From positions 1 to 44,048 of the forward strand of contig CAMWNH010000008.1 of the NCBI GenBank assembly GCA_947175605.1: DNA of 44,048 nt. Direction: 5' to 3'. Every line of letters starts with the position of its first letter. The first letter of the stretch is position 1. Position numbers and translations under genes: made by a program. The notes under the pieces were generated by a model. That model was not told the origin of the DNA. It worked only from the letters and a program-made list of their open reading frames with translations, and searched no databases. Below are positions 9,942 to 17,883 of the stretch, one piece after another. This DNA is from an uncultured Porphyromonadaceae bacterium. Its GTDB lineage: Bacteria; Bacteroidota; Bacteroidia; Bacteroidales; Muribaculaceae.

Positions 9942-12590
9942 TCAGAGTGCAGCCAAGGTGGCGTTCAGTGCAGCCAGCTTGGCTGTGGCATCTTCGAGCT
10001 TCTTCCGCTCGCCGGCCACGACAGCCTCGGGCGCATGCGCCACGAAACGCTCGTTGGAAAGCTTCTTCTCCACGGAAGCCTTGAAGCCTTCGTAGTATTC
10101 GATATCCTTGCGGATGCGGGCCTTCTCGGCTTCAACGTCAGTGCCGGCAGCCATCGGAACGTTGAACTCGCATGTGCCCACCATGAAGCTCTGCGCCGTC
10201 GGGTCCTTCGCTGCATTCTCGCCGATCTTGGACAGTCCGGAAAGCTTGGCCACGACTTCGTTCATCCCCTTGGCAGGCATATCCCCGCCAACAACCAGTA
10301 GCTCGAGGCTCTCTTTCGCCGGGATATTCTTGTGTGCACGCACGGCGCGCACACCGGTGATGATTTCCTTGGCCGTCTCCATGGCTTCCAGCAGCGACGC
10401 ATCATATGCGCCGGCCTCGGGCAGCGATGCATACATGATGCTTTCGCCAGGACGGCGGTCCGAAATGTGTTGCCACAGTTCCTCGGTGATGAAAGGCATG
10501 AAGGGATGCAGCAGGCGGAGCAGTGCATCGAAATAATCCACGACCTCCTTGTAGGTGTGTCCGTCGACAGGCTGGCCGTATGCCGGCTTCACCATTTCGA
10601 GATACCACGACGAGAATTCATCGCGGAACAGGCGGTACACGGCCATAAGGGCCTCCGAAATGCGGAACTTGCTGAAAAGGTCATCCACCTCTGCCACAGT
10701 GGCCGAAAGGCGCGAGCCGAACCAGCGCGACGCCGTGCGGCACACTTCAGGCTGCTCGGCCCCTTCGTCCACGCTCCAGCCCTTTACCAGGCGGAAGGCA
10801 TTCCAAATCTTGTTGCAGAAGTTACGGCCCTGTTCCACGAGCTTGTCATCGTACATGATGTCATTGCCCGCGGGAGCTGCAAGCATGAGACCCATGCGCA
10901 CGCCGTCAGCACCATAGTCGCGTATCAGGTCGAGCGGATCGGGAGAGTTGCCAAGCGATTTGCTCATCTTGCGGCCGATGGCATCGCGCACGATGCCCGT
11001 GAAATACACGTTGTTGAAGGGCTGCTTGCCCACGTATTCATAGCCGGCCATGATCATGCGCGCAACCCAGAAGAAAATGATATCCGGGCCGGTTACCAGC
11101 GTAGCCGTGGGATAATAGTAGTTGATTTCCTCGTTGCCCGGATTGTTGATGCCGTCAAAGAGCGTTATGGGCCAGAGCCACGATGAGAACCACGTGTCGA
11201 GTGCGCCCTCGTCCTGACGCAGATCATCTTCGCCGAGCTTCTCGCAGCCGGCTATTGCGCGAGCCTTCACCAGCGCCTCTTCCTTGGTCGGAGCCACTAC
11301 GATGTGCTCGCTGCCGTCGACGGGCGAGTTCAGGTAATAGGCCGGGATGCGATGGCCCCACCAAAGCTGGCGGCTTATGCACCAGTCCTGGATATTCTCG
11401 AGCCATACGCGATAAGTATTCTTGTATTTTTCAGGCACGAAGCGGATGATGTCGTCCATCACGGGGGCGAGGCTGCGCTCGGCAAAGTGCTTCATGTTCA
11501 CGAACCACTGCAGCGAAAGACGCGGCTCGATAGCCACCTTTGTGCGTTCCGAAGTGCCCACCTTGTTGGTGTAGTCTTCGATTTTCTCCATCAGCCCGGC
11601 AGCCTGCAGGTCTTCGGCGATCTGCTTTCGGCAGTCGAATCGGTCCATGCCTACATACATGCCCGCGGTTTCAGCCACAGTGCCGTCCTCGTTGAAGATA
11701 TCGATGGTCTCGAGGTTGTGCGTCTTGCCCAGCATGTAGTCGTTCTTGTCATGGGCCGGAGTCACCTTCAGACAGCCCGTGCCGAAATCAATCTCTACAT
11801 ACCGGTCCTCGATCACGGGCACCTCGCGGCCTACCAAGGGCACGATCACGCGCTTACCCTTGAGCCATGCATTCTTCGGATCCTTGGGGTTGATACACAT
11901 GGCCGTGTCGCCCATGATGGTCTCGGGGCGAGTGGTGGCTACGACGGCATAGCGCCCTTCCGGATCGCCCGCTACATAGTAGCGAAGATAGTAGAGTTTG
12001 CTCTGCTCTTCCACAAAGAACACCTCGTCGTCCGAGATGGCCGTGCGGTTGGCCGGATCCCAGTTCACCATGCGCAGGCCGCGGTATATCAGTCCCTTGT
12101 CATAGAGGTCGCAGAACACCTTTGTCACGGCTTTCGAGCGTTCCTCGTCCATGGTGAATGCCGTGCGGTCCCAGTCGCATGAAGCACCCAGCTTGCGCAG
12201 TTGCTTGAGGATGATGCCACCGTGCTTTTCGGTCCATTCCCATGCATGCTTCAGGAATTCCTCGCGTGTGAGGTCTGTCTTCTTGATGCCCTCGGCAGCA
12301 AGCTTGGCAATGACCTTAGTCTCCGTTGAGATGGAGGCATGGTCGGTGCCGGGAACCCACAGGGCGTTCTTTCCCTGCATGCGGGCACGACGCACGAGAA
12401 TATCCTGAATAGTGTTGTTGAGCATGTGTCCCATGTGCAGCACGCCTGTCACGTTTGGCGGCGGAATCACGATAGTGTACGGTTCGCGCGCATCGGGAAC
12501 TGAGCGGAACAGCTTGTGCTCCAGCCAGTAGGCATACCATTTGTCTTCAACCTCGGCCGGGTTGTACTTCTGGGGTAATTCGTTGCTCAT
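9942..12590 (-). CDS. valS: Valyl-tRNA synthetase
   Basis: Class Ia aminoacyl-tRNA synthetase charging tRNA-Val, cytoplasmic, 882 aa. The HIGH motif is HMGH at 52-55 ([13 protein letters not shown]) and KMSKS is at 541-545. The editing (CP1) domain lies between them, with [12 protein letters not shown] at 219-230 and a conserved [12 protein letters not shown] block. The anticodon-binding domain follows, and a C-terminal helical arm, about 815-882, rich in K/E and A/L, is typical of bacterial ValRS. The gene is transcribed alone. Its upstream spacer holds two candidate promoters, the farther one implying a leader of about 200 nt. Confidence 0.98.
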
Positions 12591-12918: not shown

Positions 12919-14415
12919 ATGAAGCTTTTAAAAAAAATACGATGGATTCTGGCTGTGATCAGTATCATTATGGTCACGCTGCTGTTCCTTGACTTTTCCG
13001 GCACGGCAGCCCATTGGTTCGGTTGGATGGCTAAAATCCAGTTCCTGCCGGCGGTGCTTGCGTTCAATGTGGTGGTGATTATCGGTTTAGTTGTCGCCAC
13101 CTTGATATTCGGCCGGCTGTATTGCTCGATAATTTGCCCGTTGGGAATCATGCAGGATGGATTCGCATGGCTGGGAAAAAAGAGCAAGAAAAACAGATAT
13201 TCTTATTCCAAGCCCTTGAATGTCCTCCGTTATGTGATGCTCGGAGTGATGATACTCGCCATTGTCCTGGGCCTTGGTTTCATAGTGGCGCTCCTTGCTC
13301 CGTATAGTGCTTACGGGCGTATAGCCCAAAGCCTGTTTGCTCCTGTATGGCAGTGGGGCAATAATCTCCTTGCTTCATGGGCCGAGGCTCATGACAGCTA
13401 CGCATTTTATGGCGTGGATGTGTGGATGCGCGGAAGCATAACTCTCGTCGTGGCTCTGACGACCCTCCTTATTCTTGGCTTCCTTGCATGGCGCAACGGA
13501 CGCACGTATTGCAATACGATTTGCCCCGTGGGCACTGTGCTCGGATTCCTTTCGCGATATTCACTGCTGAAGCCCGTAATCGACACCTCGAAATGCAACA
13601 GCTGTGGCCTGTGTGCCCGCAATTGTAAGGCTGCCTGCATCAACAGCAAGGAACATACGATCGATTATTCGCGATGCGTCACTTGTTTTGATTGCATCGG
13701 AAAGTGCCACAAAGGCGCGATATCATACCGTCGTGGCATCAAGGTCAGTGAGGCTGCAGTTCCTGCCTCAGAAACAAAGAGCGTTGACGGCTCGCGACGG
13801 AGTTTCCTCGCGCTTACAGCCACAGTTGCAGCAAGCGCGGCTCTCCGCGCACAGGAAAAGACTGTGGATGGAGGACTCGCCGTAATTGAAGATAAGAAGA
13901 TACCCGACCGCAAGACCAAGATTGTTCCTCCGGGAGCAAAAAGTATTCGCAATCTAACGTCGCACTGCACAGCGTGTCAGCTTTGCGTCTCGGCATGTCC
14001 CAACGGAGTGCTTCGCCCCTCCACGGATTTGGACTCGCTGATGCAGCCCGAATCCTCCTACGAAAGAGGCTACTGCCGCCCGGAGTGCACGCGTTGCTCG
14101 GACGTCTGTCCCGCCGGCGCTATTCAGCCTATCTCCGCAGCCGATAAATCCTCTATCCAGATAGGTCATGCAGTGTGGGTAAAGGCTAATTGCGTGCCTC
14201 TGACCGATGGCGTGGAATGCGGCAATTGCGCACGACATTGCCCGGTAGGAGCCATTACCATGGTGCCATCGGACAATAGCGAGGATTCGTCGCCGAAAAT
14301 TCCTGTAGTGAATGTCGAACGCTGCATCGGTTGTGGCGCATGCGAGAATCTATGTCCGGCACGTCCCTTCAGCGCGATTTATGTTGAAGGTCACGAAGTG
14401 CACAGAACCATTTAA
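12919..14415 (+). CDS. NapH-NapG-like fused membrane polyferredoxin
   Basis: A 498-aa integral membrane iron-sulfur protein. Four N-terminal membrane segments (about 8-25, 45-64, 104-127, 172-191) carry the NapH-type CxxxCP motifs after segments 2 and 4 (C69/C73 and C198/C202). Two 4Fe-4S motifs follow (C226-C240 and C253-C263). At 292-311 comes SRRSFLALTATVAASAAL, a textbook twin-arginine signal inside the chain. After it lie four more cysteine clusters (350-360, 386-397, 425-441, 469-479). The positive-inside rule puts the first ferredoxin half in the cytoplasm and the last half outside. This equals NapH joined to NapG/MauM in one polypeptide. The likely role is electron transfer from quinol or a cytoplasmic donor across the membrane. 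It heads a tight four-gene cassette. Confidence 0.85.
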   Translation: MKLLKKIRWILAVISIIMVTLLFLDFSGTAAHWFGWMAKIQFLPAVLAFNVVVIIGLVVATLIFGRLYCSIICPLGIMQDGFAWLGKKSKKNRYSYSKPLNVLRYVMLGVMILAIVLGLGFIVALLAPYSAYGRIAQSLFAPVWQWGNNLLASWAEAHDSYAFYGVDVWMRGSITLVVALTTLLILGFLAWRNGRTYCNTICPVGTVLGFLSRYSLLKPVIDTSKCNSCGLCARNCKAACINSKEHTIDYSRCVTCFDCIGKCHKGAISYRRGIKVSEAAVPASETKSVDGSRRSFLALTATVAASAALRAQEKTVDGGLAVIEDKKIPDRKTKIVPPGAKSIRNLTSHCTACQLCVSACPNGVLRPSTDLDSLMQPESSYERGYCRPECTRCSDVCPAGAIQPISAADKSSIQIGHAVWVKANCVPLTDGVECGNCARHCPVGAITMVPSDNSEDSSPKIPVVNVERCIGCGACENLCPARPFSAIYVEGHEVHRTI

Positions 14416-14428
14416 TCCTCTTGTAAGT

Positions 14429-15820
14429 ATGGCAAAACACGATATAAACCGACGCGAGTTTCTCAAGCGTCTCGGAATAGGATCCGGCGTTGTCGGTCTT
14501 GCACTCACAGGCTGCGACTCCGCATCAGAGAAGGTCACCTCAAAACGTTCGGCAAAGACGGATATACCCACCGATAGCATGACCTACCGCACCAATCCCA
14601 AGACCGGCGAAAGTGTGTCGATTCTCGGATATGGATGCATGCGCTGGCCTACAATCCCGGGCGAGGGAGAGGAAGTCCTGGACCAGGAGACGATAAACCG
14701 TCTTGTGGACACAGCCATCGCACATGGTGTGAACTATTTCGACACGTCACCCGCATATTGCCGTGGGCAATCCGAGCACGCTACGGGAATCGCTCTCTCC
14801 CGCCATCCGCGCGACAAATATTTCATTGCCACGAAGATGTCCAACTTCGCACCGCAGACATGGAGTAGGGAGGCTTCCATCGACATTTACCGCAACTCGC
14901 TTAAAGAGCTTCAGACGGACCATATCGACTATATGCTGCTCCATGCCATAGGTATGGGTAAGGGCATGGAAGAGTTCAAGGCCCGGTTCATAGACAACGG
15001 TATCCTTGATTTCCTTGTTGCCGAGCGCGAAGCCGGCCGCATCAGGAATCTCGGATTCTCCTATCATGGCGACATCGAAGTATTCGACTGGGCCCTCGCC
15101 AACCACGACAAATACAAATGGGATTTCGTGCAGATCCAGCTCAACTATCTCGACTGGAAGCATGCAAAGGAGCTCAATCCGCGGAATACTAACGGCGAGT
15201 ATCTCTACGGCGAGCTCGAGAAGCGTGGTATTCCGGCCGTGATCATGGAGCCCCTTCTGGGCGGACGCCTGTCGAATGTGCCCGACCACATTGCCGCACA
15301 GCTCCAGCAGCGCGACCCTGAAAAGAGTGTCGCCTCGTGGGCGTTCAGATATGCCGGCACACACCCCGGTGTTCTGACTGTGCTTAGCGGCATGACATAT
15401 ATGGAGCATCTCGAAGACAACCTGCGCAGCTATTGCCCGCTCGTGCCGCTGACGGATGAGGAGAACGCATTCCTGTACGACATGGCCGACCTGATGGTGC
15501 AGTATCCTACCGTGCCATGCAACAATTGCAAGTACTGCATGCCCTGTCCGTACGGCATAGACATTCCGGCTGTGCTGATCCATTACAACAAGTGTGTCAA
15601 CCAAGGCCTTGTCGCCGAGAACCGGCAGGCGCCCAACTATGCGGAAGCCCGACGCGCTTTCCTGGTCGGATATGACCGATCGGTGCCCAAGTTGCGTCAG
15701 GCAAGCCACTGCATAGGATGCAATCAGTGTTCGCCGCATTGCCCGCAGACTATCAATATCCCCGGAGAGCTTCAAAGAATCGACCGTTATGTAGAGTCGT
15801 TGAAGCAAAATAAAGCATGA
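14429..15820 (+). CDS. Tat-exported lipoprotein aldo/keto reductase with C-terminal 4Fe-4S clusters
   Basis: 463 aa. The N terminus NRREFLKRLGIGSG is a twin-arginine signal (R8-R9) and LALTGC ends in a lipobox cysteine (C29), so the mature protein should be a folded, lipid-anchored extracytoplasmic enzyme. The aldo/keto reductase barrel has the catalytic tetrad D105, Y110, K136, H172 (YFDTSPAY, ATKMSN, MLLHAIG). The C terminus adds two cysteine clusters: C364-C367-C370-C373 and C428-C431-C434-C438. The ATG at 14429 was chosen over an earlier in-frame one because the signal peptide begins there; it lies 13 bp after the Fe-S gene stop. NAD(P)H is not available outside the cytoplasm, so the electron source is probably the polyferredoxin or a co-exported cofactor. 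Confidence 0.88.
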   Translation: MAKHDINRREFLKRLGIGSGVVGLALTGCDSASEKVTSKRSAKTDIPTDSMTYRTNPKTGESVSILGYGCMRWPTIPGEGEEVLDQETINRLVDTAIAHGVNYFDTSPAYCRGQSEHATGIALSRHPRDKYFIATKMSNFAPQTWSREASIDIYRNSLKELQTDHIDYMLLHAIGMGKGMEEFKARFIDNGILDFLVAEREAGRIRNLGFSYHGDIEVFDWALANHDKYKWDFVQIQLNYLDWKHAKELNPRNTNGEYLYGELEKRGIPAVIMEPLLGGRLSNVPDHIAAQLQQRDPEKSVASWAFRYAGTHPGVLTVLSGMTYMEHLEDNLRSYCPLVPLTDEENAFLYDMADLMVQYPTVPCNNCKYCMPCPYGIDIPAVLIHYNKCVNQGLVAENRQAPNYAEARRAFLVGYDRSVPKLRQASHCIGCNQCSPHCPQTINIPGELQRIDRYVESLKQNKA

Positions 15821-15821
15821 T

Positions 15822-16241
15822 ATGGACCTTAGGCAGCTGGCAGACGTATTGCATCGCGAGAAATGTTCATGCGTCGTATGGAACCGGGAGACGCTCACAC
15901 TCTGTCATCAGAGAGGCGTGAAGGACCTTTACACCATCTTGTCCGAGTCTCCCGACCTTCTGCGTGATGCTTCGATTGCGGATAAGATCATAGGCAAGGG
16001 CGCGGCAGCCCTGATGATTCTCGGCGGAGTCCGGGCGGTTTATGCTGATATTATCAGCGAGCCGGCACTCGAACTTTTCAAAAATGCCGGCATCACGGTG
16101 CAGTATGAAAAGGCTGTGCCCAATATCATAAACCGCGCCGGCACGGGAGTGTGTCCAGTCGAGTCGTTATGCTCCGATTGCACTACAGCCGAGGACTGCC
16201 TTCCCCTGATTAGTAAATTCATAGAAAACATAAATAAGTAA
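15822..16241 (+). CDS. DUF1893 (TM1506-like) protein
   Basis: 139-aa cytoplasmic protein of the DUF1893 family, recognised by the pattern of an N-terminal C-V-V region, DKIIGKGAAALMILGGVRAVYADIIS, and a later PNIINRAGTGVCPVE block. The family founder TM1506 has a cytidine-deaminase-like fold but no established activity. A cysteine-rich tail follows (C-P-x3-L-C-x2-C-x5-C within the last 30 residues) that could bind a metal. The gene starts one base after the aldo/keto reductase stop, and its own stop overlaps the next start (TAATG). Function unknown; membership in the redox cassette is clear. Confidence 0.82.
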   Translation: MDLRQLADVLHREKCSCVVWNRETLTLCHQRGVKDLYTILSESPDLLRDASIADKIIGKGAAALMILGGVRAVYADIISEPALELFKNAGITVQYEKAVPNIINRAGTGVCPVESLCSDCTTAEDCLPLISKFIENINK

Positions 16242-16753
16242 TGCAGACAACAAGTATACAACTACACACGCTTCCATTCCGCAGCGTGAAGACCTACACT
16301 TTCAGCCTGGTGTTCATTCTGGGCAATATCTTGCTCCCTCGGCTTGTTCACCTGATTCCTCAGGGCGGACTCACATGGCTTCCCATATATTTCTTCACCT
16401 TGGTCGGAGCGTACATGTATGGCTGGAAGGTCGGTATTCTCACGGCGCTTCTGTCTCCCGTCATCAACAGTCTGCTCTTCGGAATGCCCGCTACTGAAGC
16501 CCTTCCTGCCATACTCGTCAAGTCGGCTCTGCTTGCATCGTTCGCCGGTGTGGCCGCATCGCGTTTTCACAAGGTCTCGCTGCCGCTGCTTGCCCGTGTC
16601 GTACTTGGCTATCAGATGTTCGGCACCCTGGCCGAGTGGGCCCTCTGCGGCGACTTCCTGCTTGCCTGCCGCGATTTCCGTATCGGTCTCCCTGGAATGC
16701 TTCTTCAGATCTTCGGAGGATATGTAATAATTCAGGCCCTTAAAAAATACTAA
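16241..16753 (+). CDS. ECF-transporter S-component-like membrane protein
   Basis: 170 aa, about five to six hydrophobic segments, in the size and pattern of energy-coupling-factor substrate-binding (S) components that bind vitamins, queuosine precursors or pyrimidines. Features include FILGNILLPRLVHLIPQGG, YFFTLVGAYMYGWKVGIL and SPVINSLLFGMP. The ligand cannot be deduced. No EcfA ATPase or EcfT gene is in the window, so it either shares a module encoded elsewhere or works alone. The start overlaps the DUF1893 stop by one base, indicating translational coupling. It is the last gene of the four-gene cassette. Confidence 0.75.
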   Translation: MQTTSIQLHTLPFRSVKTYTFSLVFILGNILLPRLVHLIPQGGLTWLPIYFFTLVGAYMYGWKVGILTALLSPVINSLLFGMPATEALPAILVKSALLASFAGVAASRFHKVSLPLLARVVLGYQMFGTLAEWALCGDFLLACRDFRIGLPGMLLQIFGGYVIIQALKKY

Positions 16754-16800: not shown

Positions 16801-17883
16801 ATGGACAAACCCAACACAGACGGAGATATTTTCCACTATATATCGCACGACAATAACATGAACGTAGTCCGCTACGTTCTTGCTTTGCTCGTGCTTCTGG
16901 CGCATTATGCGTTTTTGACCGGGCTTGACGTGTCCGTCGGTTGGCTTAGCTACATAGGTGTAGGAGGCTTTTTCTCGTTGTCGGGTTTTCTTTTGTTTGC
17001 CTCCTTTCAGCGCCGTCAGAAGATGAAGCACTACATAAGCCGCCGCGCGAAAAAGATACTTCCGCCGTATTGCTTTATAGTGCTTTTGTGTGCCATGTCC
17101 TTATGGGCGGTCAGCGACCTGTCCGTGGGCGAATACTTCTCCTCATCCGGCTTTTGGGCATATCTTGGCGCCAATTTGTCGTTCATGAACTTCCTGCATC
17201 CCGGCCTTCCGGGTGTATTCGATGGCGAGGCGTTTCTGACTCCGGCCGTCAACGGTTCGCTATGGACAATGAAAGGAGAATGGATATGCTACCTGTCTGT
17301 TCCCTTCGTTTTTTTCATGATGAAAAGATGGCGCAGGCATGCCGGAACTCTGTTGCTTGGAGTAATTGCCCTTCTTATGGCGATGAAGATTTGCTTGTAT
17401 GAAGTTTCCGAGATTCCCGAGTATTCGCGTGTACAATTATATGGCAAGCAGTTCGAAATATTCATGTATTTCTATATCGGCGCGCTCGTAAATCTCTGTT
17501 ATCCGCTTTTCCTGAAATACAAGTGGTGGGTGCTTGGCGTAAATATCATTATAGCCATCTTTTCCGATTATATTCCTTTGTATGGCGAGATTATCCAGCC
17601 CTTTGTAATCGGCACGAGTGTGCTCTGGTTTTCTCTCGTTGGCAAGTGGGGTGCGAGCTTGAGTCGGCATGACAATGTGTCCTATGACATGTATCTCTAT
17701 CACTTCCCCATTATTCAGTTGTGGGTATATCTCGGAATGACGGACAGAATTTCCCCTGTGACAGGTTTCATGATCATTTTGGGAGCGACGGTGGTATTGG
17801 CCGAATTCTCATGGAACTTCATCGGCAAGCAGTTCTACAGAGGTGAGCGTAAAAAAATAGAGGTCCATCGCATCGGACGATGA
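16801..17883 (+). CDS. Membrane acyltransferase (OafA/acyltransferase-3 family)
   Basis: 360-aa polytopic protein with about ten hydrophobic segments. The family pattern is visible: NVVRYVLALLVLLAHY at 20-35 with the conserved R and H, then GVGGFFSLSGFLLF, then RRAKKILPPY, and near the end SYDMYLYHFPIIQLW. Members transfer acetyl, succinyl or similar groups to surface glycans or other extracytoplasmic acceptors. The acceptor here is unknown and no glycan-assembly genes adjoin it. It appears to be a single-gene unit. Its last codons contain the terminator of the convergent DUF1349 gene. Confidence 0.88.
   Translation: MDKPNTDGDIFHYISHDNNMNVVRYVLALLVLLAHYAFLTGLDVSVGWLSYIGVGGFFSLSGFLLFASFQRRQKMKHYISRRAKKILPPYCFIVLLCAMSLWAVSDLSVGEYFSSSGFWAYLGANLSFMNFLHPGLPGVFDGEAFLTPAVNGSLWTMKGEWICYLSVPFVFFMMKRWRRHAGTLLLGVIALLMAMKICLYEVSEIPEYSRVQLYGKQFEIFMYFYIGALVNLCYPLFLKYKWWVLGVNIIIAIFSDYIPLYGEIIQPFVIGTSVLWFSLVGKWGASLSRHDNVSYDMYLYHFPIIQLWVYLGMTDRISPVTGFMIILGATVVLAEFSWNFIGKQFYRGERKKIEVHRIGR

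Follow-up and report, generated by a model that had tools for sequence, protein, structure and literature searches.

Why should a transmembrane polyferredoxin (PFD), an exported aldo/keto reductase (AKR), a protein of the DUF1893 family and an S component of energy-coupling factor (ECF) transporters be encoded side by side? The question is raised by positions 12,919 to 16,753 of a 44,048-nt stretch of DNA from an uncultured Porphyromonadaceae bacterium (Muribaculaceae; contig CAMWNH010000008.1 of GenBank assembly GCA_947175605.1). The whole stretch is called the window here; its source genome is a 2.24 Mb draft in 99 contigs, 98% complete. Muribaculaceae is taken as its family below, since several of the closest named relatives carry that label, others bearing the names of neighbouring families. 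Four plus-strand genes follow each other in the order PFD, AKR, DUF1893, S component with gaps of 13, 1 and -1 bp. Coordinates, gaps and family assignments had been given in a preliminary description; all were correct on re-check, and the four-gene observation itself is confirmed. As an answer we put forward, tentatively, a system by which one scarce redox-active small molecule is reduced, imported and trapped. The features concerned are the following.

12919..14415, plus strand: NapH-NapG fusion polyferredoxin (PFD), recognised by sequence motifs; its membrane half carries CX3CP motifs and, on the cytoplasmic side, two 4Fe-4S motifs, and an internal twin-arginine motif leads over to the four 4Fe-4S motifs of the extracytoplasmic half.
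13789..13845, plus strand: internal twin-arginine translocation (Tat) signal-anchor region of PFD, GSRRSFLALTATVAASAAL, joining both halves (from sequence).
14429..15820, plus strand: AKR, predicted to be exported by Tat as a lipoprotein; two 4Fe-4S motifs at the C-terminal end (Pfam).
15822..16241, plus strand: DUF1893/TM1506 domain protein, deaminase-like fold (Pfam and profile match).
16241..16753, plus strand: S component, solitary, with the six-helix fold of ECF S proteins; EcfT docking motif not kept.

In the proposed system, menaquinol would be oxidised by PFD, whose clusters would carry electrons across the membrane, as the family suggests. From there electrons would enter the lipoprotein AKR through its Fe-S domain, and AKR would reduce a carbonyl or quinoid group of the substrate in the periplasm; the anatomy of the proteins points to both steps. 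Delivery or holding of the substrate may fall to a TonB receptor and a DUF362 protein in some relatives. The reduced product would bind to the S component and move inward without an ECF motor, and a cytosolic partner, DUF1893 here and a phosphoribosyltransferase (PRTase) or methyltransferase elsewhere, would convert it and so prevent its exit. Conversion inside the cell would replace the motor, as proposed for BtuM/BtuR. What is shown is the gene composition and its conservation, the lack of a detectable EcfT, the predicted S fold, the export motifs and the nested distribution described below; everything said on the ligand, on electron transfer and on transport and trapping is inferred.

The S component (45-row alignment, 62% mean column identity) has the predicted S-component fold of ECF-type transporters. 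EcfT (PF02361) was not detected in the draft genome of the organism, and among 59 genomes of the family it was found in eight, including only two of the 28 with the S component; the same search was positive in 10 of 14 control genomes. The absence of an ECF module was judged on EcfT alone, with no search made for the EcfA/EcfA' ATPases. S components dock onto EcfT by an AxxxA motif in helix 1 (PMC11109136). This motif is not kept in the family, occurring in at most six of the 45 rows at any register and in 13 anywhere in residues 14-37. With no EcfT found and the docking motif not kept, the protein is either a solitary S component or another protein with that fold. It has the S fold without an ECF module and thus agrees with the definition of a solitary S component. 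Uptake through the S component had been part of the preliminary description; the fold has stood, but ordinary ECF uptake is unlikely. Transport by the S component alone is the role predicted by analogy to BtuM. No PDB chain matched the S profile at E 10.

According to PMC6072759, BtuM is a solitary S component from a genome without EcfT, its gene is co-located with btuB and btuR, and facilitated diffusion with metabolic trapping has been proposed for it. The likeness to the present system extends to the six-helix S fold, the Gram-negative host, the lack of EcfT, a TonB receptor gene nearby in some relatives, a co-located gene whose cytosolic product would act as a trap, as proposed for BtuR, and chemistry on the substrate during uptake. 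BtuM uses Cys80, whereas none of the cysteines is invariant or nearly so in the 45 S rows, so that the cobalt-ligating Cys of BtuM has no counterpart here. Also unlike BtuM, the cassettes scanned carry no cobalamin riboswitch, and the chemistry would fall to a separate protein; a quinol-fed Fe-S AKR outside the cell is the new element. How solitary S components import their substrates without a motor is still unclear (PMC11109136).

The distribution of the genes in whole genomes connects the S component to DUF1893. Among the 59 family genomes PFD was found in 44 (46 matches minus two with a paralogue of about 40% only), AKR in 42, DUF1893 in 31, and the S component in 28. All 28 genomes with the S component carry DUF1893, all 31 with DUF1893 carry PFD, and 30 of these 31 carry AKR; in the exception, G302, PFD sits at a contig end. 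The distribution in the family sample is nested: the reductase is most widespread, DUF1893 is added to it, and the S component occurs only with DUF1893. In seven of the genomes the S component and DUF1893 are both present yet unlinked, either on separate contigs (G254, G255, G257, G271, G274, G294) or about 0.84 Mb apart (G295). Of all parts of the unit, DUF1893 has the closest tie to the S component. A sample of 198 genomes from the order gave DUF1893 in 22, the S component in 23, and AKR in 35 (E 1e-130); DUF1893 and the S component occur together in 17, DUF1893 without S in five and S without DUF1893 in six, while DUF1893 and AKR occur together in 20.

The six order genomes with an S component and no DUF1893 have a PRTase in five cases and an S-adenosylmethionine (SAM) methyltransferase in one. 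A PRTase of 132-134 amino acids adjoins S in L247, L251, L252 and L253 (L numbers denote loci and G numbers genomes); it was assigned by Pfam in L247 and L253 and by similarity in the remainder. In G400, PRTase and S component are on different contigs. Close PRTase relatives (at least 60% identity) were found in six genomes, all with an S component, unlinked in one; two relatives at 40% identity belong to genomes without S and stand in other contexts. The methyltransferase adjoins S in G412 (L250), and in G460 one lies beside the second of the S copies (L254). In a tree of S proteins, all 81 that adjoin DUF1893 fall into one set and those with PRTase or methyltransferase lie outside, a split whose support (91/72, bootstrap not settled) is not strong. 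Metabolic trapping would explain why every genome found with the motorless S component also had DUF1893, PRTase or, once, methyltransferase.

The sister loci differ in their reductase as well. In several of them PFD is more distant, scoring 471-493 bits as compared with 1148 for the protein of the window itself. DUF362 stands where AKR would in L247, L251, L253 and L256 (by Pfam in L247 and L256), with a Tat signal scoring above the cut-off in L247 and below it in L256. The second S copy of G329 (L248:1990-6525) lies with PFD, an AKR and an FMN-reductase-like protein whose start is Tat-like; DUF1893 and PRTase are both missing beside it. With reserve, the sister versions share one plan, in which quinol-fed periplasmic chemistry is combined with a motorless S component and a cytosolic enzyme; some add an outer receptor.

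The preliminary description had suggested looking for conserved co-occurrence of the four families. To this end 130 DUF1893 loci, 50 from one genome set and the best 80 of at least 545 in named genomes, were combined, 125 of them distinct, and runs were defined as same-strand genes with gaps of at most 200 bp. Homologues of the four genes are indeed neighbours: all four stand together in 52 of the 125 runs, 51 times in the order of the window. Singly, the S component is present in 80 runs, AKR in 77, PFD in 72, the TonB receptor in 23, TatA in 21, TatC in 19 and DUF362 in 14. DUF1893 and S occur with neither AKR nor PFD in 23 runs, and AKR or PFD is present with S missing in 22. The cassette is thus a conserved unit of Bacteroidales. 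The neighbourhood seen at first has proved conserved, but not as four fixed genes: the unit is larger and modular, being joined in relatives by a TonB receptor, DUF362, TatA/TatC or exported flavodoxins. Efflux, MATE and other recurrent neighbours were set aside, their position and strand being scattered.

All four genes were found in named taxa such as Bacteroides finegoldii (L146), B. faecalis (L132), B. congonensis (L159), Dysgonomonas macrotermitis (L183) and Alistipes (L136); the run of B. xylanisolvens XB1A (L156) contains PFD-AKR-DUF1893 but not S. In B. finegoldii the cassette is also present on a circular record of 123 kb that is named a plasmid (L246:9061-12963), and the annotations of the four genes read 4Fe-4S binding protein, aldo/keto reductase, DUF1893 protein and hypothetical protein; this Bacteroides record was the sole match of the plasmid search. 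A phylum-wide search with PF08973 detected only the source genome among 247, few Bacteroidales being contained in that draw.

PFD has the layout of a NapH-NapG fusion: a NapH-like membrane half, the internal RR, and a NapG-like half with four 4Fe-4S motifs. The listed motif cysteines are kept in 75 of 75 relatives, and the internal twin arginines, which we take to be a Tat motif, in 75 (R293) and 73 (R294). The NapH and NapG models scored far under their equivalog and subfamily cut-offs, and quinol dehydrogenase activity is predicted from the NapGH family. A NapH-NapG fusion polyferredoxin with dual Sec/Tat export has been described (PMC5449189), and PFD has the same membrane half with cytoplasmic clusters, the same RR before the last membrane segment, and the same four outer 4Fe-4S motifs. 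The electron path of the preliminary description, from quinol over Fe-S clusters to an exported AKR, fits this precedent. It differs in the likely acceptor, which here is the adjacent AKR (DUF362 in relatives); no nitrate reductase is among the four genes. MsrPQ-type reductases, which are periplasmic, quinol-fed and named in the same source, likewise combine a membrane electron carrier with a soluble reductase that is exported by Tat and draws on the respiratory chain, but MsrPQ is a molybdenum enzyme with a heme carrier, whereas AKR and Fe-S clusters are found here.

The AKR domain of the window protein scored 130.5 bits with Pfam. Catalysis by AKRs relies on an Asp-Tyr-Lys-His tetrad, and this tetrad (D106, Y111, K137, H173) and eight cysteines are invariant in 73 of 73 relatives, in a numbering that runs one ahead of the ATG. 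The Tat motif RR at 9-10 is kept in 73 and 72, and the lipobox cysteine C30 in 72, of these 73. With NAD(P)H as the presumed hydride donor, an exported AKR would need a nucleotide that stays bound and is re-reduced via the Fe-S clusters. Solved relatives were considered as a functional clue and rejected, the matches being ordinary AKRs. Flavodoxin-like genes with export signals identified by eye lie upstream of PFD in L090, L164, L183, L259, L260 and L266 and beside AKR in L265; Flavodoxin_4 was confirmed by Pfam for L090, L259 and L265 only. Additional AKR genes with no obvious export signal were noted near DUF1893 in L052, L054, L102, L114, L116 and L118, with Fe-S domains confirmed in one such AKR each of L114 and L118. 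In L113 (Alistipes), a predicted exported Fe/Mn superoxide dismutase (11105-11752) is encoded between DUF1893 and the S component; a small lipoprotein-like gene precedes it, and look-alikes occur in L117 and L123 (Pfam for L113 only).

The window DUF1893 protein matches PF08973 with 167.2 bits (cut-off 27), and its profile matches the structures 1vk9 and 9e9a. TM1506 (1vk9) is the prototype of DUF1893 and 9e9a a second solved member, the window protein belonging to the same Pfam family. According to a review (PMC8946771), which cites a 2011 paper by Iyer, TM1506 is auto-ADP-ribosylated on an Asp. Invariant in 23 rows are D54, G58, A61, A62 and A82; D54 is a candidate for the modified residue. 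No pathway assigned to DUF1893 was found in the literature searched, which was poor in subscription papers, and among the papers listed for 1VK9 or 9E9A two on structure methods name 1VK9, none dealing with its function by title. Nor was any pathway of the present composition found there in titles and abstract starts, so that the statement of the preliminary description that none is known still stands for this literature.

Several observations weigh against the reduce-import-and-trap reading. PFD-AKR occurs without DUF1893 or S in 12 of the 59 family genomes, indicating that the reductase has its own use, and in 18 of the 125 DUF1893 loci no other part is in the run, some of these reaching contig ends or having parts just beyond the run. 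G355 and G388 contain DUF1893 but no AKR at E 1e-130, and in G355 the S component lies beside a PRTase (L258) in a genome that also has DUF1893. Adjacency of the methyltransferase, as a partner, is limited to two loci. In G319 (L255) and G398 (L256), S is outside the DUF1893 set of the tree, DUF1893 is unlinked and a close PRTase was not found; DUF1893 may not be the partner of S there, which lowers confidence in the reading. Fusions of AKR and DUF1893 with intact Tat motif and lipobox, found in three genera (L051, L058, L095), imply a functional tie of both proteins and would export DUF1893, in conflict with a cytosolic trap, as would the lipoprotein-like signal of DUF1893 in L105. A close TonB receptor was not detected in the source genome at E 1e-100, and an outer-membrane step is hypothetical for it; in the ten family genomes with one (at least 58% identity) DUF1893 is present in only four, so that the receptor is not tied to the unit. 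The p-values of co-occurrence treat kin genomes as independent and are guides only, and an absence from the source genome could be a gap, as it is a draft (98% complete, 99 contigs).

Nearly as likely as this reading, though also doubtful, is that PFD-AKR works by itself as a reductase of anaerobic respiration or envelope repair, in the manner of MsrPQ or NapGH-fed enzymes, and that DUF1893 and S were added to supply or recover a cofactor of AKR instead of importing a product. The 12 genomes with PFD-AKR alone agree with this, as do the DUF1893-AKR fusions and the redox neighbours (flavodoxin-like genes beside PFD, FMN-reductase-like genes, the superoxide dismutase in L113). It does not account for the 23 runs in which S and DUF1893 are paired with no reductase adjoining, nor for S of the sister set standing with PFD and DUF362, not AKR, in L247, L251, L253 and L256. 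Another reading, by which DUF1893 is a periplasmic partner of AKR and a Tat hitchhiker and the S-fold protein serves these two as membrane partner, anchor or sensor instead of transporting, appears unlikely. The fusions and L105 would fit it, as would the missing EcfT and AxxxA motif, and the S fold is also known from receptors and MreD (PMC11109136). However, a signal peptide is not seen on the window DUF1893, and in three genomes of three families single frames lead from DUF1893 into a TonB receptor (L087:5063-7504, L088:5123-7402, L104:6986-9274). DUF1893 precedes the receptor's signal-peptide-like stretch there and would stay inside; start-type codons near the junctions (ATG in L088, TTG in L104, ATG within the hydrophobic stretch in L087) make a translation restart possible. 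In addition, the PRTase and methyltransferase of the same slot use phosphoribosyl pyrophosphate and SAM, which are cytosolic substrates. That S pairs with an unrecognised energising module, as an ordinary ECF importer with unusual neighbours, is highly improbable, since EcfT was not found in the source genome or in 26 of 28 genomes with S by a search positive in 10 of 14 controls, and the docking motif is kept at no register.

For the ligand of the reduce-import-and-trap system there is a weak hint at a nucleobase-like compound: the fold of DUF1893 is deaminase-like, and the nearest matches of the PRTase are purine PRTases. Naming it by riboswitches, as the preliminary description had suggested, did not succeed: none reached threshold in the window or in the cassettes of eight relatives. 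Vitamin B12 was considered and is not supported, though it may still be the ligand. With the TonB receptors, the models for B12, siderophores and heme gave roughly the same scores, each far under its cut-off, the only cobalamin riboswitch (L034, 15918) is about 4 kb beyond the cassette, and a conserved Cys is lacking in S. The TonB receptor is an occasional member, which may or may not share the ligand of the window's system. Away from the cassette, DUF362 adjoins it in nine of ten family receptor loci (L275-L284), where the two form a recurring pair independent of the cassette; an AhpD-like exported gene, identified by eye, lies near this pair in three of them. A search for structures related to DUF362 gave no meaningful match. 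In the window, the cassette is flanked by a divergent minus-strand gene (9942-12590), which we take to be valS, and on the other side by an acyltransferase gene (16801-17883).

A bolder generalisation, which we consider rather unlikely as a whole, is uptake powered by respiration and free of ATPases, in which redox chemistry outside and trapping inside would replace the ECF motor, with at least three unrelated trap enzymes and with both enzyme slots acting as interchangeable cassettes that set the ligand. In any case, the motorless S component was never found without a candidate partner gene, in 28 of 28 family and 23 of 23 order genomes (two with a possibly wrong partner). This S family is widespread in Bacteroidales, often beside a predicted quinol-fed exported reductase, which makes metabolic trapping testable by gene removal, and DUF1893 gains a concrete partner. 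In Bacteroides, Alistipes and Muribaculaceae the unit suggests that a pathway for a nutrient or an electron acceptor awaits description.
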